Below are positions 7,266-23,358 of a stretch of DNA of 64,000 bases, in pieces. Each line of letters opens with the position of its first letter. Within the stretch, counting starts at the first letter, position 1. Both the position numbers and the translations under genes were made by a program. Source of the stretch: Metabacillus sp. B2-18 (GTDB lineage Bacteria > Bacillota > Bacilli > Bacillales > Bacillaceae); assembly GCF_021117275.1 (NCBI RefSeq), contig NZ_CP088245.1, positions 1,277,501 to 1,341,500 on the forward strand, given 5' to 3'. A model generated the notes under the pieces. It did no database searches. It was not told the origin of the DNA and worked only from the letters and a program-made list of their open reading frames with translations.

Positions 7266-8579
7266 GTGGAGAGTGGCGGTGTAGGTGGTTTTAAACTTTT
7301 TTCGTTAGGTCTACAGCATGTACTGGCTATGTATGCTGGAGCTATTTTAGTTCCGTTAATTGTAGGAAGGGCATTAAATTTATCGTCTGAACAATTAGCG
7401 TATTTAGTTGCGATAGACTTGCTTACATGTGGGATAGCAACGTTGCTACAAGCTTGGAAAAATAGGTATTTTGGAATTGGTTTACCAGTTGTGCTGGGGA
7501 GCTCCTTCGTTGCTGTCACACCAATGATTGCGATTGGCTCTCAATATGGTGTTTCTGCTATTTATGGCTCGATTATAGCGGGTGGTTTGTTTATCTTACT
7601 ATTTGCCTCGTTTTTTGGGAAGTTAATTAAATTATTTCCTCCGGTTGTAACGGGTAGTGTTGTTACAATAATTGGTCTTTCATTAGTACCAACAGGAATT
7701 CGAAATATGGCAGGAGGTAATGGGAGTCCTGATTTTGGTAGCTCGACTAATTTGTTATTATCCTTCGGAGTTTTAGCATTGATTTTGTTTTTAAATCGCT
7801 TTCTGAAAGGCTTTGCTCAAGCGTTATCTGTATTGATAGGGATCGTTGCTGGAACTCTCGTTGCGTCAATGCTGGGGAAAGTTGATTTTACAGATGTTGC
7901 AGAAGCCTCGTGGTTGCACCTTCCTGAGTTGTTCTATTTTGGAGCTCCATCGTTTGAGGTTGGACCGATTTTAACCATGATGATCGTATGTTTAGTGATT
8001 GTTATTGAATCAACTGGTGTATTTCTGGCTCTAAGTAAAATTTGTGACCAAGAATTAAAAGAAAAGGATTTTGTAAGAGGTTATCGTGCTGAAGGATTGG
8101 CAATTACGTTAGGTGGACTTTTTAATGCATTTCCATACAATACATTTGCTCAAAATGTAGGTCTTGTTCAATTGTCAAAGGTAAAAACGAAAAATGTAGT
8201 GGTGGCTGCTGGGATGATCTTAATAGGGTTAGGGCTTGTTCCAAAAATTGCTGCCATTGCAACCATAATTCCTTCTCCTGTATTAGGAGGCGCTACGGTT
8301 GTCATGTTTGGGATGGTGATTTCATCAGGTATCAAAATGCTGGGTGCTGTTGATTTTAGTGATCAGCATAATATGCTTGTTATCGCATGCTCCCTTTCAT
8401 TAGGATTAGGGGCAACTGTAGTACCAGATCTATTTGCAGGATTACCTCAAGCTTTACGCATCATAGTAAGTGACGGGATCATTACTGGAAGTTTAACGGC
8501 AATCTTATTGAATTTGTTTTTTGTGGTTCGTAAGAAAAGTAACACTGTACCGATTGATGATAACAAATCAATTGCTTAA
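7266..8579 (+). CDS. Urate/xanthine permease (NCS2 family)
   Basis: A nucleobase:cation symporter-2 (437 aa, about 12-14 helices) that imports urate or xanthine across the cytoplasmic membrane. Family features: the start GFKLFSLGLQHVLAMYAGAILVPLIVG; the transport motif region ESTGVFLALSKICDQEL near residue 248; and the NCS2 signature FNAFPYNTFAQNVGLV near residue 285. GTG 7266 is chosen because GGGAGG at 7253-7258 is seven bases away. It resembles Bacillus PucJ/PucK; which of the two, and so urate versus xanthine, is not decidable by eye. It leads the genes for urate oxidation, so urate is the more likely substrate. Confidence 0.88.
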   Translation: MESGGVGGFKLFSLGLQHVLAMYAGAILVPLIVGRALNLSSEQLAYLVAIDLLTCGIATLLQAWKNRYFGIGLPVVLGSSFVAVTPMIAIGSQYGVSAIYGSIIAGGLFILLFASFFGKLIKLFPPVVTGSVVTIIGLSLVPTGIRNMAGGNGSPDFGSSTNLLLSFGVLALILFLNRFLKGFAQALSVLIGIVAGTLVASMLGKVDFTDVAEASWLHLPELFYFGAPSFEVGPILTMMIVCLVIVIESTGVFLALSKICDQELKEKDFVRGYRAEGLAITLGGLFNAFPYNTFAQNVGLVQLSKVKTKNVVVAAGMILIGLGLVPKIAAIATIIPSPVLGGATVVMFGMVISSGIKMLGAVDFSDQHNMLVIACSLSLGLGATVVPDLFAGLPQALRIIVSDGIITGSLTAILLNLFFVVRKKSNTVPIDDNKSIA

Positions 8580-8600
8580 CTAAGAAGGAGGTGACGGAAG

Positions 8601-9104
8601 GTGGTTTCGATAAAACAACTCAATAATGTTAGTCATTCTAATTTTATTGATATGTTAAAGGATATCTTTGAACATTCTCCTTGGATTCCTGAACGAACAT
8701 GGGATTGTAGGCCTTTTTCTACAGTAGAAGACTTACATGGAAAAATGATTGGTAGAGTAAATGAAGCATCTGATGAAGAAAAGCTCCGGTTGATCCATGC
8801 GCATCCTAATTTAGGGACACGACTTGCGATGAGTAATTCTTCAGTGCAAGAACAGACTAACGCTGGGTTAAGTGAGCTCACAGCAGAAGAATATGAACAT
8901 TTTTCTTTGTTAAACAAGCGGTACATGGAGAAGTTTGGATTTCCGTTTATTATGGCGGTAAAAGGACGAACTAAAGATGAAATATATTCCTTTATGGAAA
9001 AAAGAATATCACATGGGGAGAAGGGTGAGTTTGAAACAGCATTATTAGAAATAGAAAAAATAGCTCTTTTTCGTTTACGTGAATTAATTCAAAATGAGGA
9101 GTGA
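8601..9104 (+). CDS. 2-oxo-4-hydroxy-4-carboxy-5-ureidoimidazoline (OHCU) decarboxylase
   Basis: Catalyses the third step of urate breakdown, OHCU to S-allantoin plus CO2. 167 aa, a complete single-domain UraD protein. It carries the family motif LIHAHPNLGTR near residue 53, with the conserved His-Pro, and KRYMEKFGFPFIMAVKGR near residue 103. GTG 8601 follows a strong AAGGAGGTGA at 8585-8594. In Bacillus subtilis this domain is fused to uricase in PucL; here it is a separate gene, with uricase starting five bases after its stop. Confidence 0.92.
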   Translation: MVSIKQLNNVSHSNFIDMLKDIFEHSPWIPERTWDCRPFSTVEDLHGKMIGRVNEASDEEKLRLIHAHPNLGTRLAMSNSSVQEQTNAGLSELTAEEYEHFSLLNKRYMEKFGFPFIMAVKGRTKDEIYSFMEKRISHGEKGEFETALLEIEKIALFRLRELIQNEE

Positions 9105-9108
9105 TTCT

Positions 9109-10083
9109 ATGGGGAAAGAACGTTATGTATCGTATGGAAAAGGTGATGTATTTGCATATCGTACATTTTTGAAGCCGTTGAATGGAGTGAAACAAATTCC
9201 AGAGTCTAATTTTACAGAAAGGAGCAATATTGTTTTTGGGGTAAATGTAAAAGTGGAGGTTGGTGGTGAAAAACTGCTTCCTTCATTTACAGAAGGAGAT
9301 AATAGTCTTGTGGTTGCGACAGATTCTATGAAAAATTTTGTTCAAAGGCACTTGGGTAGCTATGAGGGTTCCACCATTGAAGGATTTATTCAATATGTTG
9401 GCGAAGAGTTTTTAAAGAAATATGAACATATTGATACGATTAAATTAATTGGGGAAGAAGTTCCGTTTGAACCATCAACTAGACTTTCAGCTAGTGGTCT
9501 AGTTGAAAGTGATTTAGTGTTTAAGCATTCCCGGAATGAAAAGGTTGTTGCTCAAATTGAAATGATTCGAACTCAGAATGGGATTGAAGTTGTTGGACAG
9601 AATAGTGGAATTTTAGATTTGCAGTTAATTAAAGTGCGAGGTAATTCATTTGTTGGATTTATCAGGGATGAGTATACAACATTACCGGAGGATAGCAATC
9701 GACCGCTATTTATCTATTTAAATATCGGGTGGGAATATGAGGAATTACAAGATTCTACAGGAGTCGTGCCAAGCCTTTATGTTTGTGCAGAACAGATAAA
9801 AGATATTGTGACATCTGTTTTCCATGAACTTGAAACACCGTCTATTCAATACTTGATCTTTTTAATTGGTTGTCGAGTGCTGGAAAGATTCCCGCAATTA
9901 ATAGAAGTTCATTTTCAATCGCAAAACCATACTTGGGATTCAGTGGTGGAAGATATTCCAAATTCAGAAGGGAAAGTTTATACAGAACCACGCCCTCCTT
10001 ACGGCTTCCAACAATTTTCAGTTACAAAAGAAGATCTTCAACAAAATAAAGAATATGCCGATACAAACAATCTTTCTAAATAA
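9109..10083 (+). CDS. Uricase (urate oxidase)
   Basis: Cofactor-free oxidase converting urate, O2 and water to 5-hydroxyisourate and H2O2. About 324 aa with the tandem T-fold. Visible landmarks: YGKGDVFAYRTFLKPL near the N-terminus, SLVVATDSMKNF around residue 62 carrying the active-site Thr, and FHELETPSIQYLIFLIG in the second half. The C-terminus contains PRPPYGFQQFSVT. ATG 9109 is preferred over an in-frame ATG 15 bases upstream because GAGGAG at 9096-9101 precedes it at the right distance. It corresponds to the C-terminal half of B. subtilis PucL, here split off. Confidence 0.95.
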   Translation: MGKERYVSYGKGDVFAYRTFLKPLNGVKQIPESNFTERSNIVFGVNVKVEVGGEKLLPSFTEGDNSLVVATDSMKNFVQRHLGSYEGSTIEGFIQYVGEEFLKKYEHIDTIKLIGEEVPFEPSTRLSASGLVESDLVFKHSRNEKVVAQIEMIRTQNGIEVVGQNSGILDLQLIKVRGNSFVGFIRDEYTTLPEDSNRPLFIYLNIGWEYEELQDSTGVVPSLYVCAEQIKDIVTSVFHELETPSIQYLIFLIGCRVLERFPQLIEVHFQSQNHTWDSVVEDIPNSEGKVYTEPRPPYGFQQFSVTKEDLQQNKEYADTNNLSK

Positions 10084-10095
10084 GGATTTGATAGA

Positions 10096-10449
10096 ATGGT
10101 AGGATTGACAACACATATATTGGATTTAACACATGGTACACCGGCTGCGGGTGTGGACATTCAATTAATTAGGATCGTTGATTCAACACACACTTTACTA
10201 AAAACATCTATAACAAATGAAGATGGTCGCTTAAATGAACCGCTTTTATCTTGTGAAGAAATGGTAGTAGGTGAATATGAGTTACTATTTTTTATTGGAG
10301 ACTATTTTAGGGGTATGGAAGCTACGTTATCAGAACCTGCATTTTTAAATAAAATATCCGTACGGTTTGGAATATCAGATGCTGATTCGCATTATCATGT
10401 GCCGTTGCTCGTATCTCCTTGGGGATATCAAGTTTACAGAGGAAGTTAA
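10096..10449 (+). CDS. pucM: 5-hydroxyisourate hydrolase (transthyretin-like)
   Basis: Hydrolyses 5-hydroxyisourate, the uricase product, to OHCU. 117 aa, the normal length. It has the transthyretin-like signature LTTHILDLTHGTPAAGV at the start, with the catalytic His, and ends with the diagnostic YRGS tetrapeptide. It starts 12 bases after uricase, so permease, decarboxylase, uricase and this gene form one operon covering urate to allantoin. Confidence 0.96.
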   Translation: MVGLTTHILDLTHGTPAAGVDIQLIRIVDSTHTLLKTSITNEDGRLNEPLLSCEEMVVGEYELLFFIGDYFRGMEATLSEPAFLNKISVRFGISDADSHYHVPLLVSPWGYQVYRGS

Positions 10450-10462
10450 TCGCAAAAATATT

Positions 10463-10500
10463 TTGGGGTGAAGTCTAATGATTTCGCCCTCTTTCATATA
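10463..10500 (+). terminator. Possible weak terminator after pucM
   Basis: GGGGTGAA and TTCGCCC can pair across an 11-base loop with one G-U pair, followed by a short T-rich stretch. It would separate the urate operon from the downstream sensor kinase. Confidence 0.4.
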
Positions 10501-10663
10501 TTTAATGTTTGTTTAATTGTTTTAAAAGCTATGTATGAGCAGTTCTATCTTACAAATTTTTTTTATAAGAAATGTTATTGAAATTAAAGGTGAATTTCCA
10601 TTTATTGTTGAAAGTATCAATAGTTGAAATTTAAAATTAATTTCTACCGAAGAAGGTGTGATT

Positions 10664-12208
10664 TTGAATAATGTAAATGTTCATAACGATGAGGAAATAG
10701 ATCATTTTAGGAAAGAAAATGAACAATTAAAGTTGGAAATTGAGTATTTAACGCATGAGCTAAATGCCTCTAAGGAAAGTAGAGCTCGAGAATCAGATAA
10801 AAGTGATATAAGATTCAAACGGTTATTTAATCATCTTACTGATGCTGTTTACTATTTTAAGATTTATGACGATGGAAGTGCGGGTAATTTTATTGAAGTG
10901 AATGAAACTGCTTGTCAACGATTAGGGTACACCCGGGAAGAAATGCTTGCTTTATCACCAAAGGATATTGATGGGCTTGAGACAGGGGAAATGAAGCCGA
11001 TTATTAAAGATGTATACGATAACGACTCAATTATTTTTGAAACCGTTCATGTTTGTAAAAATGGGGGTAGAATTCCTGTTGAAATTAAGACTCATAGGTT
11101 TGTGGTAGAGGGGGAGATGTATCTACTTTCAGTTTGTCGTGATATTACTGAAAGAAAAAATTCAGAAAGAGAGATTCGAGAGGCTAAGGAACAGTTTGAA
11201 AATATCGTGGAATCTTCTACTAACGGAATTACAATCCTGCAAGATGGAAAATGGGTATTTGTGAATAAGGCGGCCCTAACTCTTTTTGATGCTAAAACGA
11301 AGGAAGAGCTACTAGGGAGAAGTATTTATGATATGTTGCACCCGGAGTTTCATATGGAATGTAAGGAGATTGTAAAGAAAGGTGGAATTCACCCTAGGCT
11401 TTATCGTGTTTGGACTACTCTACGCGGGAAAGAAGTACATACGGAAGTGGTATCAATTCCTACTACCTTTCAGGGGAAAGATGCCAATGAGTTAATCATT
11501 CAAGATATAACGGAACAGAAAAAATCAGACTCAATGATGATTCAGGCAGAAAAAATGAATGTGGTAGGGCAACTAGCAGCTGGAATTGCGCATGAAATAA
11601 GAAATCCTTTAACTGCTTTAAAAGGTTTTGTTCAATTATTTCGCTCAGGAACGATACCGAATGAAATGTTTTTAAATATTATGGAGGCTGAGTTGGAACG
11701 GATAGATGTTATCTCGAGTGAGTTTCTAACGCTAGCTCAACCCGCAAATAGTGATTTTGCTACTGTTGATATTAGAGATTTAGTGAGTAATGTTATCGAT
11801 TTATTGGATACGGAAGCTTTCAAAAAATCAATATCTTTTGTTGTTGAAAATAACGCTATAGCAACAGCTGTTAATGGAATTGGTTCACAACTAAAGCAAG
11901 TGTTCATTAATTTGATTAAAAACGCAATTGAAGTGATGCAAAACGAGGGGACTATAACCATTACATTTAAAAATCATGAAGGATTTATTCTTATCTCTGT
12001 ACATGATGAAGGTGTAGGGATGAGTGAAGAGCAGCTGAAGCGGTTGGGAGAACCATTTTACACAACAAAACAAAATGGTACAGGACTAGGCCTTATGGTT
12101 ACTTATCGAATTATTAATCAGCATAATGGGGTAGTGGATGTTGAGAGTAAAGTTAACGCAGGGACAACTTTTACAGTGAAATTACCGCTGATTGCTAAGG
12201 TAGAGTGA
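10664..12208 (+). CDS. Soluble PAS-PAS sensor histidine kinase (sporulation-kinase-like)
   Basis: About 514 aa without membrane helices. A short N-terminal coiled coil is followed by PAS domain 1 (about 48-170, with FIEVNETACQRLGYTREEM), PAS domain 2 (about 175-290), a HisKA domain with GIAHEIRNPLTALKGF (His310) and a HATPase domain (NAIEVMQ N-box, DEGVGM, GTGLGLMV). The HisKA sequence is of the type found in Bacillus phosphorelay kinases that feed Spo0F. No response regulator lies nearby. The best start is TTG 10664, since GAAGGTG at 10652-10658 is too close to GTG 10658. It lies between pucM and pucR; whether it senses purine or redox status is unknown. Confidence 0.85.
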   Translation: MNNVNVHNDEEIDHFRKENEQLKLEIEYLTHELNASKESRARESDKSDIRFKRLFNHLTDAVYYFKIYDDGSAGNFIEVNETACQRLGYTREEMLALSPKDIDGLETGEMKPIIKDVYDNDSIIFETVHVCKNGGRIPVEIKTHRFVVEGEMYLLSVCRDITERKNSEREIREAKEQFENIVESSTNGITILQDGKWVFVNKAALTLFDAKTKEELLGRSIYDMLHPEFHMECKEIVKKGGIHPRLYRVWTTLRGKEVHTEVVSIPTTFQGKDANELIIQDITEQKKSDSMMIQAEKMNVVGQLAAGIAHEIRNPLTALKGFVQLFRSGTIPNEMFLNIMEAELERIDVISSEFLTLAQPANSDFATVDIRDLVSNVIDLLDTEAFKKSISFVVENNAIATAVNGIGSQLKQVFINLIKNAIEVMQNEGTITITFKNHEGFILISVHDEGVGMSEEQLKRLGEPFYTTKQNGTGLGLMVTYRIINQHNGVVDVESKVNAGTTFTVKLPLIAKVE

Positions 12209-12266
12209 GCTCTCAAGTTTATTGATTGTAAATATAGTGTGAGGTGTTTTAAACAAACTGAGAGCT
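12208..12266. terminator. Possible hairpin between convergent kinase and pucR
   Basis: AGCTCTCAAGTTT and AAACTGAGAGCT can pair with one bulged base across a 34-base loop, overlapping the kinase stop codon. There is no clear T run, so termination is uncertain. Confidence 0.35.
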
Positions 12267-12298
12267 TGGAATGGGACACCAGGCTCCTTAATTATTTT

Positions 12299-13924
12299 TT
12301 AATTCTTAGTTGTACCGTAAATTAGTGCTTTGATTCTAAAAGCAAGGCGGAGACGTAACGTTTCGTCGGGTTCTTTTAAGCTTCTTCCGATCATTTCCTC
12401 GCATTTTTCCAACCGATAAATAACAGTATTTCGATGAACATATAGTTTTTTTGCAGTTTCTGATAACTGGCAATGTGTTTCTAGATAAACAGATAAAGTA
12501 TGGAGCAGGACTTGATGATCCTTTTTAGTATCGTTGGCAAAAGCTTGGAATGTATCGTCATAAAACTTTTTTAAATAATCATAAGGAACCATTCGTAAAA
12601 TTTCCGGTACTTCCTTTGGTTGATAAATCTCAATAAATTGCTTTTTACCTGACATCCTTCCGAAATATAGAGCCTCTGTTGCTTCTTTGTATGACACGGT
12701 AACATGTGTAAGTTCTTCAGCGTACATGCTTATTCCAAATGAAAGATTTTCTTTAAAATGAATTCCTATTCTCATTTGTAGTTTTTCTAATAACTGAACA
12801 AATGAATCTTCATTTTCCTTTCTTGCACCATTTAATTCTAACAAAAAAATGTAAAATTGTTCGTTAGAAAAGAGATGGATTTTTTCCTCGAAGTTTTGTA
12901 GCTCATACTCAATTGTATCGTAAATTAATTCCTTTTCTGACTGAAACTGCAGATAAGATTTGTCTTTGTCATCATCATCTATTTGTCCGACAGCACATAA
13001 ATATCGTTGATCCTCTATTAGTCCGAATTCTTTTCCACGACTAATGATCTCTTCTTGTGTTGAAAATGCATCATTAATGAAATTGGAAAAAAATTCATCT
13101 TGTAGGCGCCTTGTCATTTGCTTTAAAGCATGTTCTTTCATTAATTCAAATGAAATAACGTTTGTTGCTTGTTCAATCGTTAAGATAGTGGAACGATCTG
13201 TGGGTGGGATGTTACCTAAAACACAAAGATAGTTGGACTGCCTATGCGTGTAAACTGGAAAAATCGTCACTGTGTCTTTGTTGTTATTTAATAGTGAAAA
13301 AGCTGTATATGATGCTTTTGAAAGGTGAAACAGATATTCATTTGCGATTGTATCTAAATACAAATAAATATTTGTTTGCCAATTTAGTTTTGTAAGTGGA
13401 AGTAAATGATCATTTACTAAAAATACAGGTGAATCAATAAGGCTGGATAAGTTATCTAAAATTTTATGAATACCCTGTCCATTCATAATTTGATTTGTAA
13501 ATTGTTGGTGAGCATCCATAGCATGATGAAGTTCATTTGTTCGAATTTCTAGAATATGACTAAGTGATTTGTTAACAATATCTCCAAGTGATGTATCAAC
13601 AGGAAGCTCTAGCAGTGGAATATTAAGCTTGTTAGCGAGAGTGATCACATCTCTAGGAATCTCCTGTAAAAAACGCTTCGTTTTAATCCCTAATCCTGCA
13701 CATCCTTGCTTCTCCATTTCTTTAATAAGCTGAAGCAATGCCTGAAGGTCATCTTTAAAATGAAAGGCTGTTGTAACAAGAAGTTCGTCTTTTTTTAAAA
13801 AGTGAATAATGTCAGGTGCATCCATCATATTAACTGTGTTCACTTCACGATCAGTTCCTTGCTGCCCACCCAGTAATTTTGCTCCGTGAAAAACAGAAAG
13901 ATTCAGTAAATCAATTAATCTCAT
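12299..13924 (-). CDS. pucR: PucR-family transcriptional regulator of purine catabolism
   Basis: 541 aa. The N-terminal PucR domain (about residues 5-125) includes VNMMDAPDIIHFLKKDELLVTTAF and KQGCAGLGIKTKRFL. A middle GGDEF-like region follows, and the C-terminal helix-turn-helix (about 475-535) reads LSETAKKLYVHRNTVIYRLEK. In Bacillus, PucR activates the puc genes under nitrogen limitation and when a ureide inducer is present. It is transcribed divergently from the allantoate amidohydrolase gene and convergently to the kinase gene, an expected position for a local regulator. A near match to the PucR box lies in the divergent promoter region at 13952. Confidence 0.92.
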   Translation of the reverse strand: MRLIDLLNLSVFHGAKLLGGQQGTDREVNTVNMMDAPDIIHFLKKDELLVTTAFHFKDDLQALLQLIKEMEKQGCAGLGIKTKRFLQEIPRDVITLANKLNIPLLELPVDTSLGDIVNKSLSHILEIRTNELHHAMDAHQQFTNQIMNGQGIHKILDNLSSLIDSPVFLVNDHLLPLTKLNWQTNIYLYLDTIANEYLFHLSKASYTAFSLLNNNKDTVTIFPVYTHRQSNYLCVLGNIPPTDRSTILTIEQATNVISFELMKEHALKQMTRRLQDEFFSNFINDAFSTQEEIISRGKEFGLIEDQRYLCAVGQIDDDDKDKSYLQFQSEKELIYDTIEYELQNFEEKIHLFSNEQFYIFLLELNGARKENEDSFVQLLEKLQMRIGIHFKENLSFGISMYAEELTHVTVSYKEATEALYFGRMSGKKQFIEIYQPKEVPEILRMVPYDYLKKFYDDTFQAFANDTKKDHQVLLHTLSVYLETHCQLSETAKKLYVHRNTVIYRLEKCEEMIGRSLKEPDETLRLRLAFRIKALIYGTTKN

Positions 13925-13951
13925 AAATGGTCATCCTTTTTGTTAGGTAAT

Positions 13952-14124: not shown

Positions 14125-15372
14125 TTGGTTATGGAAGAGAAAGAATCATCTGCCTTATTTATAGAAATTGAACAGATGGTTGAGTGGCTGGCTCAATTCG
14201 GAAGAAGTCAGAGTGGTGGTGTGACAAGATTATTATATACAGATGCTTGGCAGGAGGCTCAATATGCACTTAAAAAGAAAATGGAGCAGCTTGGCCTAAT
14301 AACAAATTTTGACGATGTTGGTAATTTATTTGGAAGATTAAAAGGAACCCAAGAAGATGCTGCTACAATTTTAACAGGATCACATATTGATACGGTTAGA
14401 GATGGTGGGAAATATGATGGTGCATATGGAATCATTGCAGCTGTAATAGCTGTTCAGCTTTTGCGGGAACAGTATGGAACTCCTAAGAAAAATATAGAGG
14501 TTGTCTCTTTGTGCGAAGAAGAGGGAAGTCGCTTTCCGATGACTTATTGGGGATCGGGTAATATAACTGGCGTTAAATCTTTTGATGATATAAGGGATAT
14601 AAAAGATTCAGAGGAAATTCAGTTTGAAGAGGCGATGAATAAGGCTGGCTTTGGACGAGGTAAATATTTGAGGCCGAATCGTAAAGATCTTGAATGTTTT
14701 TTAGAACTTCATATCGAACAAGGAATTGTATTAGAGAAGGAAGAGAAGGCGGTTGGTCTAGTAAGTCATATTGTTGGTCAACGAAGATACAATGTTACTG
14801 TTTTTGGCGAAAGTAATCATGCTGGAACAACTCCGATGATGTGGCGTAAAGATGCAATGTATGCAGCAGCTGAACTTATTCAAGCGCTTATAGGTCGTGG
14901 AAAAGAAACTGCGCCTGACTTAGTAGTGACGGTTGGACAAATAAGTATAAAACCAAACATAGCAAATGTTATACCGAAGGAAGTCACATTTAGTGTTGAT
15001 ATTCGGCATAGTGAAGAGTGTGTTTTAGATCAGTTTTGTGATGAAGTCTTTCAAGAGCTTGAACTAATTGCGATCAAACATCAAACAAAGCTTACTATTC
15101 ATAATTGGATGAATGAAAAGCCGGTCAAGATGAGTGAAAAACTAAATCATTTATCTGAGAAGATTTTAGAAGAAGAACAAATTCCTTATAAGTGGATGAC
15201 AAGTGGTGCCGGTCATGATTCTCAAATTTTCGGTTCATTTTGTCCGACTTCATTATTATTTGTTCCGAGTCAGAATGGAATCAGTCATTCTCCGTTGGAA
15301 TTTTCGAAAACTGGGGATTTGGAAATAGGTATAAAAGTATTAATGAAAATATTATATGAATTAGCGTATTAA
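14125..15372 (+). CDS. pucF: Allantoate amidohydrolase (M20 family)
   Basis: Binuclear-metal hydrolase converting allantoate to S-ureidoglycine, NH3 and CO2. About 415 aa. The metal and catalytic motifs of the M20/AllC family are present: TGSHIDTVRDGGKYDGAYG near residue 88 (His and Asp), LCEEEGSRFP near 130 (Glu pair), ELHIEQG near 194 (His) and GAGHDSQIF near 357. A dimerisation domain lies between about 205 and 320. The start is TTG 14125 or ATG 14131; AGGGGG at 14113-14118 fits the TTG slightly better. It begins a run of tightly spaced puc genes. N-carbamoyl-amino-acid hydrolases are similar, but the context supports allantoate. Confidence 0.88.
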   Translation: MVMEEKESSALFIEIEQMVEWLAQFGRSQSGGVTRLLYTDAWQEAQYALKKKMEQLGLITNFDDVGNLFGRLKGTQEDAATILTGSHIDTVRDGGKYDGAYGIIAAVIAVQLLREQYGTPKKNIEVVSLCEEEGSRFPMTYWGSGNITGVKSFDDIRDIKDSEEIQFEEAMNKAGFGRGKYLRPNRKDLECFLELHIEQGIVLEKEEKAVGLVSHIVGQRRYNVTVFGESNHAGTTPMMWRKDAMYAAAELIQALIGRGKETAPDLVVTVGQISIKPNIANVIPKEVTFSVDIRHSEECVLDQFCDEVFQELELIAIKHQTKLTIHNWMNEKPVKMSEKLNHLSEKILEEEQIPYKWMTSGAGHDSQIFGSFCPTSLLFVPSQNGISHSPLEFSKTGDLEIGIKVLMKILYELAY

Positions 15373-15384: not shown

Positions 15385-16626
15385 ATGAGTGTTTTTCAAG
15401 AGATAAATGCACCATTGCGAACGATTATGACACCGGGACCGGTTGAGGTTGATCCTAGGGTATTACGAGCAATGGGTACACCTATTTTAGGGCAATTTGA
15501 TCCTGTTTTTACTGAAATGATGAATGAAACAATGGAGATGCTTCGTTATATTTTTCAAACGAAAAATCAATGGGCTTTTCCGATAGATGGAACATCCCGT
15601 TCAGGTATTGAGGCTGTTATGTGCAGTGTTATTGAGCCTGGAGATAAAGTATTGATACCGATTTTTGGGAGGTTTGGTCACTTATTAACGGAAATTGCTG
15701 AACGGAATGGAGCGGAAATTCATACGATCAATTGCGAATGGGGAAAAGTTTTTGATCAGCAAGAAGTAATTGATGAAATTAAAAAGGTACAGCCTAAGGT
15801 GTTAGCGATTGTTCATGGTGAAACCTCAACAGGATGTATGCAACCTTTAGATAAAATTGGTCCTGCGTGTCGAGAGCTTGATGTTTTATGTATTGTGGAT
15901 GCAGTGGCTACAATTGCCGGAACAGAAGTAAAAGTAGATGATTGGAAGCTTGATGCAGTGATTGGTGGGACGCAAAAATGCTTGTCTGTTCCTTCAGGAA
16001 TGGCACCGATTACGTACAATGAACGAATAGAAGAAATCTTAGTGAAAAGAAAAAAAGTAGAAAAAGGAATAGCCACAGAAAATGATCATGTAAATGTTGG
16101 TCGACCAATTCGTAGTAACTATTTTGATTTAAGTCAACTTCAAGATTACTGGGGAGCAAGAAGACTTAATCATCATACAGAAGCAACTTCAATGTTATAT
16201 GCCTTACGCGAAGGAGTTCGAATTGTCTTGCAAGAAGGGTTAGTTGAACGGTTTGAGCGACACCAATTACATGAAAAAGCACTTGTTGAAGGAATAAAAG
16301 CAATGGGATTAGAGTTATCCAATGATGTTCCGTGGAAACTTCCGATGGTAACTTGTGTGCGTATACCTGATGGAATTGATGGAGAGGAAGTTCGTTCGAT
16401 GCTTCTTAATCAATTTGGGATTGAGATTGCAAGTTCTTTTGGTCCTCTTCATGGGAAGATTTGGAGAATTGGAACGATGGGATATAGCTGTCGAAAAGAA
16501 AATGTCTTATTTGTTTTATCTGCCCTTGAAGCTGCTCTGATTCGTTTGGGAGCAAACTTGCATGTAGGGAAAGGCTTGCAAGCTACGTTGGATATTTATG
16601 AATCAAAGAATTTAGTAGCTAAATAG
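15385..16626 (+). CDS. pucG: (S)-ureidoglycine-glyoxylate aminotransferase
   Basis: PLP-dependent class V aminotransferase that moves the amino group of ureidoglycine to glyoxylate, giving oxalurate and glycine. 413 aa. Landmarks: the family start TPGPVEVDPRVLRAM; DGTSRSGIEAVM around residue 72; VDAVATIAGTEV near 172; and GGTQKCLSVPSGMAP with the PLP lysine at Lys198. It begins 12 bases after pucF with GGGGG at 15372-15376. Serine-glyoxylate and alanine-glyoxylate aminotransferases are in the same family; the surrounding urate genes decide the call. Confidence 0.92.
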   Translation: MSVFQEINAPLRTIMTPGPVEVDPRVLRAMGTPILGQFDPVFTEMMNETMEMLRYIFQTKNQWAFPIDGTSRSGIEAVMCSVIEPGDKVLIPIFGRFGHLLTEIAERNGAEIHTINCEWGKVFDQQEVIDEIKKVQPKVLAIVHGETSTGCMQPLDKIGPACRELDVLCIVDAVATIAGTEVKVDDWKLDAVIGGTQKCLSVPSGMAPITYNERIEEILVKRKKVEKGIATENDHVNVGRPIRSNYFDLSQLQDYWGARRLNHHTEATSMLYALREGVRIVLQEGLVERFERHQLHEKALVEGIKAMGLELSNDVPWKLPMVTCVRIPDGIDGEEVRSMLLNQFGIEIASSFGPLHGKIWRIGTMGYSCRKENVLFVLSALEAALIRLGANLHVGKGLQATLDIYESKNLVAK

Positions 16627-16691
16627 AATGGGTGGAAAAGATTCTGGAGAAGAACCAGGATCTTTTTGTTAAATCTAAAGGGGGGATCAGT

Positions 16692-17855
16692 GTGAGAGAT
16701 CAATGGAATGCATTTTTTGATGAAAAAATAATATTGGAACCAACGAAAGTTGGAGTGTTAAACGGTTTAACGTTTGCTGTAAAAGATGTTATATCGATAA
16801 AAGGGTACAAAAATGGTGCTGGGAATCCAGGTTGGTTAAAAACTCATAAAGAATCGCAAGAACATGCTCCAGTAGTTGAATGTCTTTTAGAGCAAGGTGC
16901 AAAGCTAGTGGGAACTACTCAAACGGATGAAATAATGTACAGTCTAAATGGTGAAAATTTTCATTATGGTACACCGGTCAATCCGAAGGATCCGAGGCGG
17001 ATTCCAGGGGGTTCCTCAAGTGGCTCAGCTGTTGCAGTTGCAGCTGGTTTAGTTGATTTTGCTTTAGGGACTGATACAGGTGGTTCTGTTCGAATACCTT
17101 CATCTTATTGTGGAATCTATGGCTTTCGCCCAACTCATGGAGCAATATCGGTTGATGGAGTGATTCCGTTGGCGGGAAGCTTTGACACAGTTGGATGGAT
17201 GACAAGAGACCCAGAACTATTATGTAGAGTAGGAGAAGTGCTATTGAAAGCTCCAGGTACAAGTGGTAGTTTTACAGAAATGTTTTTCGCTGAAGATGCA
17301 TGGGAGCTATTAGATGATGAATATAGAAGGGCATTGTTAAAGACTGTTTCTTCAATGAAACTTCCGAAAATAAGAAAATGGGTCAAAATATCGAAAGAAG
17401 GATTATCTGAATGGTCAAGTACTTTCAGAATTTTACAAGGACTTGAGATTTGGAACGAACATGGAGAATGGATCAAAAAAGAAAAGCCAACATTCGGACC
17501 GGGCATTTCTGAAAGGTTCCAATGGACCAGTACGCTTAACGTAAGTGAGAGTCGGCAACAATTTCAGTGCAGGGAGAATATGAAACAATCAATATCTACG
17601 CTCTTAGGAGAAAGTGGAATTATTGTTATTCCGACAGCACCAGGCCCAGCTCCTCTTCTAAATTTGTACGGAGAAAAAGCGGAACAGTATCGAGTGAAAG
17701 CAATGAAACTTTCCTGTATAGCGGGGTTGGCTGGTTTGCCGCAGATTACACTTCCTTTAACAGAAGTGAATGGACTTCCGGTAGGTTTATCGTTTATAGC
17801 AAATCAGTATCAAGATCTTAAGCTTCTTAATTGGGTAAAGAGTATTTCAAGGTAG
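16692..17855 (+). CDS. Amidase-signature hydrolase; candidate oxalurate hydrolase
   Basis: A cytoplasmic amidase-signature enzyme of about 387 aa. The Ser-cisSer-Lys triad is visible: Lys in FAVKDV near residue 33, the Gly/Ser-rich GGSSSGSAVAVAAG near 106-119, and the nucleophile region DTGGSVRIPSSYCGIYGF just after. An in-frame GTG at 16632 has almost no ribosome site, whereas GTG 16692 follows AAAGGGGGG at 16678-16686, so the later start is preferred. It lies 65 bases after pucG, whose product is oxalurate, and hpx-type purine clusters of enterobacteria also carry an AtzE-like amidase. Hydrolysis of oxalurate to oxamate is therefore a reasonable inference, not shown by sequence. Confidence 0.8.
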   Translation: MRDQWNAFFDEKIILEPTKVGVLNGLTFAVKDVISIKGYKNGAGNPGWLKTHKESQEHAPVVECLLEQGAKLVGTTQTDEIMYSLNGENFHYGTPVNPKDPRRIPGGSSSGSAVAVAAGLVDFALGTDTGGSVRIPSSYCGIYGFRPTHGAISVDGVIPLAGSFDTVGWMTRDPELLCRVGEVLLKAPGTSGSFTEMFFAEDAWELLDDEYRRALLKTVSSMKLPKIRKWVKISKEGLSEWSSTFRILQGLEIWNEHGEWIKKEKPTFGPGISERFQWTSTLNVSESRQQFQCRENMKQSISTLLGESGIIVIPTAPGPAPLLNLYGEKAEQYRVKAMKLSCIAGLAGLPQITLPLTEVNGLPVGLSFIANQYQDLKLLNWVKSISR

Positions 17856-17867
17856 GGGGTCTGTTTA

Positions 17868-18743
17868 ATGAAACTTGCAACAGTCAAGAACGAAGGTAAA
17901 GAGTTTGCTGTTATTATTACAGCCGAAAAGGCTGTTTCTATTCGAGAGATTAATAGGGTGCTTGGAATGAGTTGGAGTGAAGATCTGTTTAGTATTCTAG
18001 AAAAAAATCAACTTTCTTCATTGAATGACTGGTATAGAAATGGGGGGATGGAACAATTGGGAAGTTCTTCGTTAATGGATATAGATAACTTGTCATTTGG
18101 TCCTTTGTACCGCAATCCAGGAAAGATATGGGGAGTGGGGATGAATTACGTTGAAAAGGCAATTGAATTATCCGGAAGTCCACCTGGGGAAGAGCCTGTT
18201 ATTTTTATGAAGCCGATTACTAGTGTGATAGGTCCTGATGATCCGATCATTTTACCGAATCAATCTTCACAGGTTACAGCGGAGGCTGAGCTTGGTGTTA
18301 TTATCGGGAAAACGTGCAAAAATATTAAGGAAGAGGAAGCGAGTAATGTTGTTGCTGGCTTTACAACAACATTAGATATGACGGCAAAAGATATACATGC
18401 AAAGGACCCTCGTTTTTTACAACGATCCAAAAGCTTTGATACGTTTTTTAGTTTCGGCCCCTACTTTTTAACAATAGATGAATGGCAAGATTTAGAAAAT
18501 ATAAGAGTAAGCACAAGTATAAATGGTTGTAAGAAGCATCAAAACGTTGTTCGCAACATGATGTTTAAACCTTGGTGGATTGTTTCCTTTTTCTCAGAAA
18601 TAATGACTCTACATCCTGGTGATATCATTATGACGGGTACTCCGGGATCGATTCTGATTCGTGACAGAGATGTTGTGGGATGTGAAATCTCTGGTTTTAA
18701 GGAGTTGAGAAATTTAGTTGTGGAAAAATATAGTGTTAATTGA
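17868..18743 (+). CDS. Fumarylacetoacetase-family protein in the puc operon
   Basis: A 291-aa member of the FAH superfamily (metal-dependent hydrolases and lyases acting on 2-oxo acids). An N-terminal cap of about 85 residues precedes the catalytic domain, which has KIWGVGMNYVEKAIE near 94; the metal ligands in TAEAELGVIIG (two Glu) and TTLDMTAKDIHAK (Asp) at about 140-180; FGPYFLT; and the C-terminal PGDIIMTGTPGS. It follows the amidase by 12 bases and is closed by a terminator. FAH proteins are sometimes annotated as ureidoglycolate lyase; cleaving ureidoglycolate would yield glyoxylate, the co-substrate of PucG. That role is inferred from context only. Confidence 0.8.
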   Translation: MKLATVKNEGKEFAVIITAEKAVSIREINRVLGMSWSEDLFSILEKNQLSSLNDWYRNGGMEQLGSSSLMDIDNLSFGPLYRNPGKIWGVGMNYVEKAIELSGSPPGEEPVIFMKPITSVIGPDDPIILPNQSSQVTAEAELGVIIGKTCKNIKEEEASNVVAGFTTTLDMTAKDIHAKDPRFLQRSKSFDTFFSFGPYFLTIDEWQDLENIRVSTSINGCKKHQNVVRNMMFKPWWIVSFFSEIMTLHPGDIIMTGTPGSILIRDRDVVGCEISGFKELRNLVVEKYSVN

Positions 18744-18750
18744 TTGGAGT

Positions 18751-18779
18751 AGGTGTCTTTAAAGAGATACCTGTTTTTT
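18751..18779 (+). terminator. Terminator after the pucF-pucG-amidase-FAH operon
   Basis: AGGTGTCTTT / AAAGAGATACCT pair over ten positions including G-U pairs, followed by GTTTTTT. Confidence 0.8.
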
Positions 18780-18914
18780 ATGTTAGGATTTGTTACTTTT
18801 GAAGAATTGTTAGCGATAATTTTAGTTAAATAATACAAAGAGAAATTAAACAATTCATAGATCCTCTAATGATTTATCTGGAATTCTACTATAAAATGTA
18901 ATTAGATGTTAACT

Positions 18915-18933
18915 TTACTAACACTGTTAGTAA
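18915..18933 (+). promoter_or_regulatory. Perfect 19-bp palindrome upstream of the pucI remnant
   Basis: TTACTAACACTGTTAGTAA has 9-bp arms around one central base, 43 bases before the permease start and just upstream of a possible -10 TACAAT (18942-18947). It looks like an operator. Its core ACTAA-N5-TTAGT is the same pattern as the tandem operators at 35555-35599. Confidence 0.6.
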
Positions 18934-18976
18934 TGAAATGTTACAATGAGTAGTTTAGATGATAAAGGAGGATCAC

Positions 18977-20232
18977 ATGGAAACAAATTATGATTTAAAA
19001 CCAATCCTAAGTGAAAAGAATCGAATACTAGGTCCAAAAGCTTATGTGGCAATGTGGTGGGGAGACGCAGTTATGGTTGGGTCGTTTATGTTAGGATCAA
19101 GTCTTATTCCTCCATTCGGTGAATTAAACTTAACACAAGCATTAATTGGATTAGTTTTGGCGAATATACTTGCGGCCTTATTATTTGCTTTAAATGGTAG
19201 AGTGGGGTGGAAACATGGAATACCAATGGTTGTTCAACTTCGTTCCTCCTTCGGTCCAGTCGGAGCAAAAATACCTTCGTTAATGCGTGCAATACCAGCA
19301 TTATTCTGGTATGGAGTTCAAAGTTGGTTAGGCGCACAAGCGTTAAATCAAATTTTTATGGATATATTCGAGTTTAACAATGTCTGGGTATGGTTCTTTG
19401 GTTTTCAGGCTTTACAAATTTATTTATCTGCTAAAGGAATTAAATCAATTAAGTGGATTGAAGTGGTTGGTTCAGTTGTGATTATGTTAGGTGTAGTGTA
19501 CTTAATTTTCTTATTTTTATCTACGTTTGGCTTTGAAGTAACAGAAACGGCTAATGTTGAGGGTTCATGGGGAATTCCTTTTTGGTTGGCTATTTCAGTT
19601 TTAATTGGTCAATTTTCAGCTTTATTATTGAATGTGTCAGATTATACAAGGTATTTTCCTAGAAAAGCTTCTACAAAGACATTTATTGGTTCGCATGTAG
19701 TAGGTATAGTTCCGCCGATGATTTTGTTACCTATCGTTGGAATTCTTGGTGCAGCCGCTGTAGGAATATGGAATCCAGTAGAATGGATATTTTTAAGATT
19801 TCGTGGGAAAAAGCATGTGTAATTGTCGGAATATTAGGTGTAATCACTTGTCCATGGTATATCATGACTGATTCAACTTTTAATCTATTTATCTCTATAG
19901 TCTCCGCGTTTTTAGGACCAATTTTTGCTGTGATGGTAGCAGATTTCTATCTCGTACATAAAGGAAACTACAATGTTAGTAAACTTTATGATGTGAAGAA
20001 CCTATTTCCAGCGTATAAAGGGTGGAATCCAGCTGCAATTATTGCAATTGCTGTAGGTACATGCTTTTCATTTATCAATGTTGATCTCTCTTGGTTGTTA
20101 GGAATTGTTCCGGCTGGGGTTGTTTATACAGCAATCATGAGACTATGGATAATAAAGCAAGATGAGTATGTAAAAGAAGGATTTGAGCAGAGCTTTACAC
20201 AATCAACTGATATAGAAGATCTAGCGGTGTAA
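18977..20232 (+). pseudogene. pucI: Allantoin permease (NCS1 family), disrupted by internal deletion and frameshift
   Basis: The first part (18977-19822) encodes about the N-terminal 270 residues of an NCS1 transporter: WWGDAVMVGSF, HGIPMVVQLRSSFG, ALFWYGVQSWLGAQAL and LLLNVSDYTRYFPR. After WNPVE (about 19777) this frame runs into junk and stops at 19822. The C-terminal part continues in another frame from about 19785 (FKISWEKACVIVGILGV) to 20232, with the usual NLFPAYKGWNPAA tail. Compared with the normal roughly 490 aa, a central segment of perhaps 45-70 residues (about two helices) is missing at the junction and the frame is changed, so no full transporter can be made. A good AAGGAGG start signal and upstream palindrome remain, indicating recent loss or an assembly fault. 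Confidence 0.85.
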
Positions 20233-20243
20233 TAAAGGGATAG

Positions 20244-20271
20244 GTGCTTAAGTTAAGTAAATCTTAAGCAC
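20244..20271 (+). terminator. Hairpin after the pucI remnant
   Basis: GTGCTTAAG and CTTAAGCAC are perfect 9-bp arms around a 10-base loop, followed by a weak T-rich run. Likely terminator or processing hairpin. Confidence 0.6.
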
Positions 20272-20305
20272 TGCTTTCATTTAAAAAGATAAAGGGGATG
20301 AAGTA

Positions 20306-21682
20306 GTGGAACAGTTAGATCTAATCATTAAAAATGGAAGTGTTGTTCTGCCATCAGGTCCAGAGAAAATGGACGTTGGTATAAAAGACGGAAAAATCAC
20401 TGAAATAGAAAAAGCTATAACAAAACGTACACTCAACACATGGGATGCTACTAATCGATACATTTTCCCAGGAATGATTGATGTTCATGTACATTTTAGT
20501 GAGCCAGGAAGAGAGCATTGGGAAGGTTTCCATACTGGCTCACAAATGATGGCTGCTGGTGGTTGTACAACTTATTTTGATATGCCGTTAAATGGAATTC
20601 CCTCAACAGTTACGAAAGAAGCTCTTTATGAAAAAGCAAAATTAGGTAATGAAAAATCTTATGTCGATTTTGGATTGTGGGGAGGACTTGTCCCGGGAAA
20701 TGAATCGGATTTAGAAGAACTGGCGCATTCTGGTGCAATTGGGTTTAAAGCATTTCTCTCAACTACAGGTAATAAAGAGTTTGAAGCGGTTGATGATATA
20801 ACCTTACTTAATGGAATGAAGAAGATCGCCGAATTAGGAAAAATTTTAGCGCTTCATTCAGAAAGTGCGGCGATAACAAATTGGTTAAAGAAACAGAAGG
20901 AACAAGAAGGGAATATAAGTGCGGATGATTATTTAGAAACACGGCCTATTATAGCTGAGGTAGAAGCAGTTGAACGAGCTATTCATTATTCAGAGCTTAC
21001 AGGCTGTCCACTTCATTTTGTTCATATTAGCTCAGCAAAAGCGATTGAAAAGATTGAAGAGGCTAAAGCAAAGGGACTAAACATCACAGTAGAAACATGT
21101 GCTCATTATTTATTATACAACCATGAACATTTAAGGGAATTAGGAACCGTAGCAAAATGTGCACCACCTTTACGAGAAAAGGAAGAGCAGGGAAAATTAA
21201 TTAACTTATTAATCAACGGAAAATTCGATATGCTTACCTCTGATCATTCTCCATGTCCTTATGACTTGAAAGATCCTAATGTATATAATTTGTTTGAAGC
21301 ATGGGGAGGAATTAGTGGAGGGCAATTTACGCTTTTATCTGCAATTGAGCTTGCTACTCGCTATCATATTCCCTTTGAACAAGTTGCGGTGTGGACAGCA
21401 CAAGCACCAGCGGAAAGATTTGGTTTATCTGATAAAGGACAGATCAAGGTTGGTGGAGATGCCGACTTTGCTATTGTTTCCTTGGAAGACTCCTTCATAG
21501 TAACAAAAGAAAATTTCTTTGCAAAGCATAAGGAGAGCTTGTATATGGGGCATACGTTTCCTTGTAAGATTGTTGGGACAATTAATAGAGGTAATATTAT
21601 CTATGAGAATGGGAACATTCTAGAACAAAAAACTTATGGGGAATGGATAAAACCTATAAAAGTCGAAGTGAAAACTCTATGA
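20306..21682 (+). CDS. pucH: Allantoinase
   Basis: Binuclear amidohydrolase of the cyclic amidohydrolase family that opens allantoin to allantoate. 458 aa. Metal-binding landmarks are in place: GMIDVHVHFSEPGREHWEGF near residue 55; GFKAFLS around 147 with the lysine that is carbamylated in the family; LHSES near 183; HFVHISS near 238; and LTSDHSPC near 311 with the final Asp. GTG 20306 is preceded by AAGGGGATG at 20292-20300. It lies upstream of the GGT-family gene with a roughly 95-base gap. Dihydropyrimidinase and dihydroorotase are related, but GCTTYFDMPLN and the context support allantoinase. Confidence 0.93.
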   Translation: MEQLDLIIKNGSVVLPSGPEKMDVGIKDGKITEIEKAITKRTLNTWDATNRYIFPGMIDVHVHFSEPGREHWEGFHTGSQMMAAGGCTTYFDMPLNGIPSTVTKEALYEKAKLGNEKSYVDFGLWGGLVPGNESDLEELAHSGAIGFKAFLSTTGNKEFEAVDDITLLNGMKKIAELGKILALHSESAAITNWLKKQKEQEGNISADDYLETRPIIAEVEAVERAIHYSELTGCPLHFVHISSAKAIEKIEEAKAKGLNITVETCAHYLLYNHEHLRELGTVAKCAPPLREKEEQGKLINLLINGKFDMLTSDHSPCPYDLKDPNVYNLFEAWGGISGGQFTLLSAIELATRYHIPFEQVAVWTAQAPAERFGLSDKGQIKVGGDADFAIVSLEDSFIVTKENFFAKHKESLYMGHTFPCKIVGTINRGNIIYENGNILEQKTYGEWIKPIKVEVKTL

Positions 21683-21777
21683 AATCTGGAAATTTGAAAG
21701 CCTTTTTTAAAAATGATAGAGGTTTTGTTTTTTCTATTCTTGAATATGTTATTAAAAATAAAAGAGGAGGAAATTTC

Positions 21778-23358
21778 ATGAATAAACCAATTGTCGGTTC
21801 AAAAACAATGGTCGTAAGTCCACATTACTTAGCATCTCACGCAGGAAACACAATCCTTGAAAAAGGAGGAAATGCGTTTGATGCAGCAGTAGCTGTTAGT
21901 GCCTGCCTTGCGGTGGTATACCCACATATGACCGGACTTGGTGGTGATTCCTTTTGGCTTACATACAGTAAAAAGGATCAAAAAGTACGTGCTTACAATG
22001 GGAGTGGACGAACAGGAGTAAATATAACACGTAACGATTATGAAGGAAAAAGCTCTATTCCTACTCGAGGTATTGAGAGTGTGATAACGGTGCCTGGAAT
22101 GGTCGATAGTTGGGATGCTGTATTAAAGGAATATGGGCGACTTTCGTTAGAGAAAGTGCTGCAGCCAGCAATTGAGTATGCTTCCAAAGGGTTTCCATTC
22201 TCACTTGACCAGCATGAAAATACAGTCAAAAATGCAGAGATGTTAAAAGGAGATAAAGATACAGCAAATGTTTTTTTAGCCAAAGGAAAGGTTCCTAAGG
22301 TAAATGAAAGATTCGTACAAGAAAACTTAGCAACAACATTAGAAGAGTTAGCATTATCTGGTAGAGATGAATTTTATAAAGGTGAGCTTGCATATCGACT
22401 TATTTCTAGCTTAAAAGATAAGGGCGGCAAGCTAACGGTTGAGGACTTGGCTCATCATAAAGGAGAATGGACTGAACCACTTACCTCTACATATCGCGGG
22501 TATAATATGTATCAAGTTCCTCCAAATTCACAAGGCTTTGTGGGATTAATGGCACTTAATATATTAGAAAATTTTGATTTTACTGCAATTTCCGAAGGAT
22601 CTTACGAATATTATCATTTATTAGTAGAATCATTAAAAAGAAGTTTCCAAGATCGAAATAAACATTTAACAGACCCTGAGTTTTACTCCGTTCCTATAGA
22701 AAGATTAGTAAGTAAGCAGTATGCAAAAGAGATAGCAGATGCCATTCAATTTGACCGTACTAATGATATAGAAACTCAATCAGTTGGCAGCGACACAGCT
22801 CATGCAGCTGTTATAGATGAGGAAGGAAACGCTGTTTCCTTTATACAAAGTCTTTATTTTGAATTTGGATCAGGTGTGGTTGCTGGAGACACAGGTGTTG
22901 TTATGCAAAATAGGGGTTCGTTTTTCTCACTTAACGCAAGTGATGTGAATTGCCTCGAGCCGAGAAAAAGAACTTTCCATACTCTGATGCCAGCAATGGC
23001 TCTAAGAGATGGTCAGCCAAGGATTCTTTATGGCACACAAGGTGGTGAAGGTCAGCCGCAAACTCAAACAGTCATCATTACAAGAATGATTGACTATGGT
23101 ATGAATCCGCAACAAGCTATAAGTGAACCTAGATTTGTTTGGGGAAGAACATGGGGACAGCAAACTCAAGAGTTGAAAATTGAAGGTCGAGTCAGTATGG
23201 ATGTGATTGAGGAATTATCAAAAGCTGGACATATTGTTAATATAGTTGAAAATTTTGCTGGAATTATGGGCCATGCAAATGCAATAGTCATAGATGATCA
23301 GGGCTTTGTTCATGGTGGAGTGGACCCTAGGAGCGATGGAGCTGCGATTGGAAGGTAA
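21778..23358 (+). CDS. Gamma-glutamyltransferase-family acylase; candidate oxamate amidohydrolase
   Basis: An Ntn-hydrolase proenzyme of about 526 aa with no signal peptide, so cytoplasmic, unlike secreted glutathione-cleaving GGTs. The large-subunit start has EKGGNAFDAAVAVSACLAV and GLGGDSFWL. The self-cleavage and catalytic Thr is in SDTAHAAVID (Thr340). The small subunit has AVSFIQSLYFEFGSGVV, NRGSFFSLN and the RRR-like PRKRTFHTL. ATG 21778 is set by AGAGGAGG at 21763-21770. Enterobacterial HpxW, an oxamate amidohydrolase of urate catabolism, is in this family, and the FEFGSGVV/QNRG block recalls it. Placement beside pucH suggests oxamate to oxalate plus ammonia. A generic GGT-like acylase is the alternative. 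Confidence 0.8.
   Translation: MNKPIVGSKTMVVSPHYLASHAGNTILEKGGNAFDAAVAVSACLAVVYPHMTGLGGDSFWLTYSKKDQKVRAYNGSGRTGVNITRNDYEGKSSIPTRGIESVITVPGMVDSWDAVLKEYGRLSLEKVLQPAIEYASKGFPFSLDQHENTVKNAEMLKGDKDTANVFLAKGKVPKVNERFVQENLATTLEELALSGRDEFYKGELAYRLISSLKDKGGKLTVEDLAHHKGEWTEPLTSTYRGYNMYQVPPNSQGFVGLMALNILENFDFTAISEGSYEYYHLLVESLKRSFQDRNKHLTDPEFYSVPIERLVSKQYAKEIADAIQFDRTNDIETQSVGSDTAHAAVIDEEGNAVSFIQSLYFEFGSGVVAGDTGVVMQNRGSFFSLNASDVNCLEPRKRTFHTLMPAMALRDGQPRILYGTQGGEGQPQTQTVIITRMIDYGMNPQQAISEPRFVWGRTWGQQTQELKIEGRVSMDVIEELSKAGHIVNIVENFAGIMGHANAIVIDDQGFVHGGVDPRSDGAAIGR

Follow-up and report, generated by a model that had tools for sequence, protein, structure and literature searches.

What becomes of oxalurate in bacilli that degrade urate? 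The known reactions run from urate to oxalurate, which the aminotransferase PucG forms, together with glycine, from ureidoglycine and glyoxylate. B. subtilis PucG makes oxalurate, and in the literature accessible to us the next step in Bacilli has no assigned enzyme. Here we describe a locus of the soil bacterium Metabacillus sp. B2-18 that names two candidates. It lies in a stretch of 64 kb (positions 1,277,501 to 1,341,500 of contig NZ_CP088245.1, in a 5.47-Mb genome), which we call the window and whose own coordinates are used throughout. The window holds a puc-type urate set (uricase, 5-hydroxyisourate (HIU) hydrolase, OHCU decarboxylase, allantoinase, PucF, PucG and PucR), together with an amidase-signature hydrolase of the PRK08310 family (16632..17855, forward strand) and an Ntn-hydrolase of the gamma-glutamyltransferase (GGT) family (21778..23358, forward strand). 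An earlier note on this DNA had read the locus as a route from urate through oxalurate and oxamate to oxalate. Phylogeny, motifs, gene neighborhood and co-occurrence favor that route, which was right in outline, although the kinship given to the amidase was wrong. We consider it probable that the locus strips urate of its nitrogen in this way, with the oxalate probably being excreted.

Two candidate enzymes beyond oxalurate

These lines of evidence are most simply accounted for if the amidase stands in the place of HpxY, and the GGT-family enzyme in that of HpxW. In the pathway that we propose, urate oxidase, HIU hydrolase, OHCU decarboxylase, allantoinase and PucF would convert urate to ureidoglycine, and PucG would transaminate ureidoglycine with glyoxylate to give oxalurate and glycine. 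The PRK08310-type amidase would then cut oxalurate to oxamate and carbamate (giving ammonia and CO2), after which the HpxW/YwrD-type Ntn-hydrolase would split oxamate into oxalate and ammonia. Oxalate would leave the cell, probably via a neighboring anion transporter (a pair of ChrA proteins and/or a SulP protein). By known chemistry, the nitrogen balance would comprise ammonia from the PucF step, a nitrogen passed to glycine at PucG, ammonia from oxalurate and ammonia from oxamate. Of the four nitrogens, the one that PucG passes to glycine in its known reaction would thus not be released as ammonia.

The amidase, a PF01425 protein, scores 484.3 bits on the PRK08310 model NF006169 of NCBIfam (cut-off 391), which is described only as 'amidase', with no named function. 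On the AtzE model, by contrast, it reaches 202.8 bits (cut-off 461), versus 773.5 bits for K. pneumoniae HpxY, to which it is 27% identical; we therefore reject it as an AtzE/HpxY ortholog. Neither HpxX (AtzG-like) nor HpxZ (AtzH-like) had a match at 1e-4, whether in the window or in the loci from Bacilli, and the HpxZ family PF11533 had none in the genome, so that of the hpx-type back end proposed earlier only the GGT-family part stands. Residues K51, S128-S130 and S152, which we take to be the positions of the amidase-signature triad, are invariant in all 12 aligned sequences, the window's included. Because of its genomic context, namely its co-occurrence with PucG and its GGT-family and hpxZ neighbors, we infer that the PRK08310-type amidase is likely an oxalurate hydrolase, replacing the HpxY of Klebsiella. 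This would give a likely substrate to an amidase family that lacks a named function.

The GGT-family gene is the sole match to PF01019 in the whole genome. Its start is most likely the ATG at 21778, which follows a good ribosome-binding site (AGAGGAGG), and not 21643. In a tree of 59 rows, the protein falls within a group of 43 (support 100/97) that also contains Klebsiella HpxW, Azospirillum proteins and two groups from Bacilli, while five glutathione-type GGTs, among the 16 other rows, branch apart at 100/100 (one of the five, L185, was confirmed as a GGT). This is the phylogenetic check that the earlier note had asked for, and it did not refute the proposal. K. pneumoniae HpxW itself forms a long branch, closer to the second Bacilli group than to the group of the window protein. 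The motif GRTWG is present in every one of the 43 rows of the HpxW group and GGxGQPQTQ in 41 of them; neither is found in any of the other 16. The small subunit matches chain 5hft_B, presumably from K. pneumoniae HpxW (the record reads gamma-glutamyltranspeptidase), at 187.8 bits, as compared with 81.7 for E. coli GGT. The broad model TIGR00066 does match the protein (580.9 bits). Nevertheless, the Arg and the Ser-Ser of the aligned GGT rows, which we take to be gamma-glutamyl-binding residues, are substituted in it, and on account of these replacements and the split in the tree we reject the identity of a glutathione gamma-glutamyltransferase. K. pneumoniae HpxW is reportedly an oxamate amidohydrolase, and we infer that the Metabacillus protein is likely HpxW-type, with oxamate as its probable substrate. 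The GGT half of the pathway is not new, since the likeness of B. subtilis YwrD to HpxW, along with its co-evolution with purine genes, has been in print since 2016, according to the accessible part of that paper (PMC5270733).

The association of both genes with PucG was counted at two scales. A scan of genome contigs gave 349 stretches encoding amidase relatives, of which the best 80, from Bacilli, were used with flanks of up to 10 kb; co-occurrence was counted in 100 genomes, the window's own included. PucG is encoded in all 24 amidase-positive genomes and in 23 of the 76 amidase-negative ones (Fisher p 2e-10, relatedness ignored). Among the best 80 of the 349 loci, 41 have PucG nearby, 44 an FAH-family gene, 33 a GGT-family gene and 53 a puc enzyme gene, and for the 39 loci without nearby PucG, it was found elsewhere in 26 of the 27 genomes tested. 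The GGT-family gene is within 200 bp of the amidase gene in 21 of the 80 loci (20 of the HpxW group) and within 10 kb in 33 (31 of the HpxW group); the two outside that group are those of L164 and of L128, which is among the 21. Genomes with a GGT-family protein of at least 44% identity encode PucG in 31 of 32 cases (one of the 32, G028, was counted on a 148-residue fragment), versus 16 of 68 others, and such a protein is present in 18 of the 24 amidase-positive versus 14 of the 76 amidase-negative genomes. On a quick amidase tree the state of having the GGT-family gene nearby changes 15 times, indicating that this neighborhood was gained or lost repeatedly.

Related arrangements are found in other phyla. 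Plasmid searches matched 505 records with the GGT-family protein and 79 with the amidase, and 16 regions were examined (one of them unannotated), 11 being amidase regions. Directly behind the amidase gene, hpxZ is found in three Azospirillum regions, two of which also carry an HpxW-group GGT gene, and in Roseomonas and Pseudoroseomonas; in the Azospirillum regions (L178, L179 and L182) a DUF1116 (AllG-type) gene follows the amidase-hpxZ pair. A Rhodococcus amidase, which at first view seemed to lack hpx genes, proved to start with an in-frame HpxZ-like part of 39.6-44.2% identity (gene at 8602-10146 of L195), making it an apparent HpxZ-amidase fusion. On the Pseudoalteromonas plasmid pPBSW1, genes for the amidase, a GRTWG-bearing GGT-family protein, TauE, an aminotransferase and allantoate amidohydrolase stand in a row. 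No amidase is annotated beside the HpxW-group or related matches in the Paracoccus, Rubrobacter and Priestia regions.

Evidence against the proposed substrates and alternative assignments

Several observations weigh against oxalurate and oxamate as the substrates. The large chain of the GGT-family protein does not discriminate, scoring 189.5 bits against 5hft (presumably HpxW) and 189.4 against E. coli GGT, and its best single chain over the full length is 2nlz, a 'cephalosporin acylase' (337.4 bits), HpxW being split into two chains (189.5 + 184.8). Independent-pairs tests on the amidase tree, with few pairs, were not significant. In the Bacilli loci L081-L088, the GGT-family gene is joined to Lrp and ChrA genes with no puc or amidase gene nearby. 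Four of the 24 amidase-positive genomes (G065, G073, G078 and G098) have only a GGT-family protein of 35-39% identity, and two (G024 and G046) have no GGT match at 1e-60. No GGT-family gene is nearby in 47 of the 80 loci, and the 28 of these genomes that were tested comprise 11 with a GGT-family protein of at least 47%, 14 with only the 35-39% type and three with none. Outside Bacilli, GRTWG is missing from the GGT-family protein encoded near the amidase of Rhizobium, and we have dropped this region as support for an HpxW-type partner. Amidase relatives in Paenibacillus and Roseomonas lie in creatininase/isochorismatase/CocE clusters where purine degradation is not evident, and no hpx or puc gene was found in the regions from Variovorax, Aminobacter and Caballeronia (three of the 11 plasmid amidase regions). 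The amidase family, taken broadly, is therefore not devoted to oxalurate alone. Finally, a chromatin immunoprecipitation study of TnrA reports no site at ywrD in its accessible part (PMC4475385); the earlier work that it cites, giving ywrD as TnrA-regulated, speaks for the pathway.

The amidase gene is followed directly, in the same gene run and after a gap of 12 bp, by a gene for an FAH-family hydrolase (17868..18743, forward strand; PF01557, 190.7 bits), and it could be this enzyme that cuts oxalurate to oxamate and carbamate, in which case oxamate or a different ureide would be the substrate of the amidase. In structure, oxalurate is the aza-analogue of an acylpyruvate (carboxylate-CO-NH-CO-NH2 versus carboxylate-CO-CH2-CO-R), which a metal-dependent acylpyruvase-like enzyme could cut, and the solved FAH relatives, led by HpaG-type proteins, include the acylpyruvase FAHD1 and maleylpyruvate hydrolase. 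The nearby FAH genes in the Bacilli loci (46 in a looser count) are within 200 bp of the amidase gene in 33, and FAH and gatA-like amidase genes are described near biuH in several ammonia-oxidizing archaea in the accessible part of PMC12625717. However, 16 of the 80 loci have the amidase and a GGT-family gene with no FAH gene above threshold (L164 among them, with two weaker FAH pieces), which argues that FAH is not required; the annotations of the Azospirillum, Pseudoalteromonas and Rhizobium regions list no FAH gene, and it is the amidase, rather than FAH, that HpxZ stands beside or is fused to. We regard this exchange of roles as quite unlikely, and the amidase remains our candidate for the oxalurate step.

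An unlikely alternative concerns the second step: the GGT-family enzyme may act on some other amide or peptide, as part of a separate module resembling ywrDCBA (GGT, ChrS-like regulator and ChrA pair) that came to adjoin puc genes by chance in part of the genus, in which case the pathway would end at oxamate or oxalurate. Several relatives do keep GGT, Lrp and ChrA genes together away from puc, and the clade of 35-39% identity that lacks GRTWG is likewise linked to ChrA, in six of six loci. Yet the enzyme groups with HpxW and carries its motifs, HpxW-group genes lie within 200 bp of the amidase gene in a quarter of the 80 loci, proteins of at least 44% identity nearly always occur with PucG, and the adjacency is seen again in Pseudoalteromonas. 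It is also conceivable, but to us most improbable, that both enzymes serve a broader pathway for oxidized ureides (biuret, triuret or similar products of purine oxidation), to which oxalurate would be incidental. Genes for a RutB/BiuH-like isochorismatase, a creatininase and a cytosine-deaminase-like enzyme in Paenibacillus, and for a cysteine hydrolase and a creatininase in Roseomonas, fit such a role, whereas the near-obligate co-occurrence of the amidase with PucG, the maker of oxalurate, speaks against it.

Fate of oxalate, regulation and layout of the locus

If the route from urate to oxalate is correct, such bacilli would be scavengers of nitrogen, converting urate to oxalate, and this bears on how urate-degrading strains of soil and gut are viewed. 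Oxalate would be a waste product, since the genome has no match to oxalate decarboxylase (TIGR03404) and reaches only 210.8 bits on oxalyl-CoA decarboxylase (TIGR03254, cut-off 739.4), these being the two oxalate-degrading families searched. Downstream of the GGT-family gene lie, all on the forward strand, genes for a SulP-family anion transporter (23517..24761; PF00916, 333 bits, with the sulP and DauA models below cut-off), which is a possible oxalate carrier, for a ChrS-like regulator of the Lrp type (24847..25296; NF053758, 207.5 bits, below the cut-off of 250), and for a pair of short chromate-family (ChrA) transporters (25587..26159 and 26159..26689; PF02417, 154.2 and 147.4 bits). In 35 of the 51 Bacilli loci of the HpxW group, in which some genomes are represented twice, ChrA genes are within 2.5 kb of the GGT-family gene, and of the remaining 16 loci, six end within 0.7 kb. 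The other anion transporters by this gene are TauE (two proteobacterial loci), L-lactate permease (two records) and the SulP protein of the window. These neighbors suggest that oxalate may be excreted through the ChrA pair and/or SulP, although the linkage of ChrA to the clade without GRTWG as well means that a ChrA neighborhood is no proof of an oxalate substrate.

Paired short ChrA genes adjoin the GGT-family genes of two clades across Bacillales (25587-26689 in the window; L087, L090-L095 and L188), mostly with no purine genes nearby, L094 being an exception. Possibly, the natural substrate of ChrA is common with the product of the GGT-family enzyme. The locus also hints at what chromate-family transporters may naturally do. 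A wider proposal, which we put forward tentatively and think more doubtful than the pathway itself, is that PRK08310-type amidases form a second, unrecognized class of oxalurate amidohydrolases, which take the place of HpxY, whether or not HpxZ is present, in Bacilli as well as in several proteobacteria and actinobacteria, and that the paired short CHR transporters, which often adjoin the HpxW-type enzyme in Bacilli, naturally export oxalate, with SulP, TauE or lactate permease substituting elsewhere.

As for regulation, control through a PucR box was rejected as unsupported: the consensus, at one mismatch or fewer, matches the window five times against 7.0 expected, with no match between the genes of the locus. 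TnrA-box-like sites, again by consensus, are a hint at most. One lies upstream of the NCS2 permease gene with no mismatch (7225..7241, forward strand) and one in the gap between PucR and PucF with one mismatch, but window totals are no more than chance (two versus 1.4 expected, and 28 versus 21.8 at two mismatches).

All of the genes in the earlier gene list (uricase, HIU hydrolase, OHCU decarboxylase, allantoinase, allantoate amidohydrolase, aminotransferase, amidase and GGT-family gene) are present, with open frames, where they had been placed, and to them must be added the FAH gene, a PAS histidine kinase, PucR, an NCS2 permease and a broken NCS1 permease. Upstream, on the forward strand, are the NCS2 permease of the xanthine/urate (PucJ/K-like) type (7266..8579; TIGR03173, 553.8 bits, cut-off 414.15), OHCU decarboxylase (8601..9104; TIGR03164, 196.9 bits, cut-off 96.25), urate oxidase (9094..10083; TIGR03383, 271.6 bits, cut-off 168.4) and HIU hydrolase (10096..10449; TIGR02962, 125.7 bits, cut-off 87.45). 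The PAS-domain histidine kinase that follows (10658..12208, forward strand; Pfam match) sits inside the purine cluster, a position shared only by L056 and L057 among the loci of relatives compared, and the PucR-type regulator (12299..13924; PF07905 + PF13556) is on the reverse strand. The forward gene run PucF-PucG-amidase-FAH has successive gaps of 12, 5 and 12 bp; in it, PucF (14125..15372) scores 570.2 bits on the allantoate deiminase model NF006768 (cut-off 532), and the predicted oxalurate-forming ureidoglycine-glyoxylate aminotransferase PucG (15385..16626) matches the B. subtilis PucG structure 3isl at 669 bits, ahead of another such aminotransferase, 3nnk, at 466. Between this run and the GGT-family gene, also on the forward strand, lie the NCS1 (allantoin-type) permease (18959..20232) and allantoinase (PucH, 20306..21682; NF004839, 653.5 bits, cut-off 631). 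The permease is broken into two overlapping frames, through either decay or an assembly error, while close relatives (L056 and L057) have an intact frame of 463 codons. The large subunit of xanthine dehydrogenase (PucD model), outside the window, likewise appears to be in two pieces (L201 and L202; G000:C1:2937563-2939754).

Comparison with known systems

Literature searches, which covered few subscription papers, gave no recognizable assignment of an oxalurate amidohydrolase in Bacilli, of PRK08310 as such or of oxalate as a CHR substrate. The accessible text of PMC12625717 gives hpxY as oxalurate amidohydrolase, its figure legend differing, and describes, for ammonia-oxidizing archaea, a biuH neighborhood with genes for a creatininase, FAH and a gatA-like amidase. 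That neighborhood is similar in composition to the Paenibacillus amidase clusters (L147, L151, L152, L169 and L170), which bring together a PucR-like regulator, an ABC transporter, an isochorismatase-like hydrolase, the amidase, creatininase, FAH, an FAD oxidase, an S15 peptidase, a cupin, a cytosine-deaminase-like enzyme and GGT, and which look like an uncharacterized pathway for a ureide or heterocycle. The AtzE/AtzG/AtzH system, as described in the accessible part of PMC6219798, likewise has an amidase-signature enzyme whose substrate is a small ureide; it differs in amidase family and in its AtzG and AtzH, whose counterparts were not found here. E. coli AllFGH, the oxamic transcarbamylase, also consumes oxalurate and forms oxamate, but by phosphorolysis, with three gene products, during anaerobic growth and with no further metabolism of oxamate (PMC11326118, accessible part).

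Closer is the B. subtilis puc system with YwrD, represented here by the genus group g6, probably Bacillus sensu stricto. Its PucG orthologs are 69-74% identical to that of the window (79% in G046), and 12 of its 24 genomes encode a full-length GGT ortholog of 62-64% identity. In contrast to Metabacillus, only two of the 24 (G046 and G055) have the amidase, and in five single-chromosome genomes (G031, G053, G054, G055 and G058) the GGT gene lies about 0.4 Mb from PucG, so that the GGT-family gene is not limited to joined clusters. Lrp and ChrA genes adjoin it in the two g6 loci examined.

The row of genes on the Pseudoalteromonas plasmid pPBSW1 shares with the Metabacillus locus a PRK08310-like amidase, an HpxW-type protein with GRTWG, an aminotransferase and allantoate amidohydrolase; a TauE/SafE transporter is found there in place of ChrA and SulP, and the amidase, at 379.8 bits, is just under the cut-off of 391. 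In Klebsiella, hpxX, the AtzE-type amidase gene and hpxZ lie downstream of HpxW with an aminotransferase gene nearby (L176, in which the HpxW gene is unannotated and its frame broken; it is intact in L177). Compared with hpxWXYZ, the Metabacillus locus has a PRK08310-type amidase without HpxX and HpxZ, a front end of the B. subtilis puc type, and additional FAH, SulP and ChrA genes. Nevertheless, both loci unite a ureidoglycine-type aminotransferase, an HpxW-type enzyme and an amidase-signature enzyme, and the same intermediates are predicted for both.

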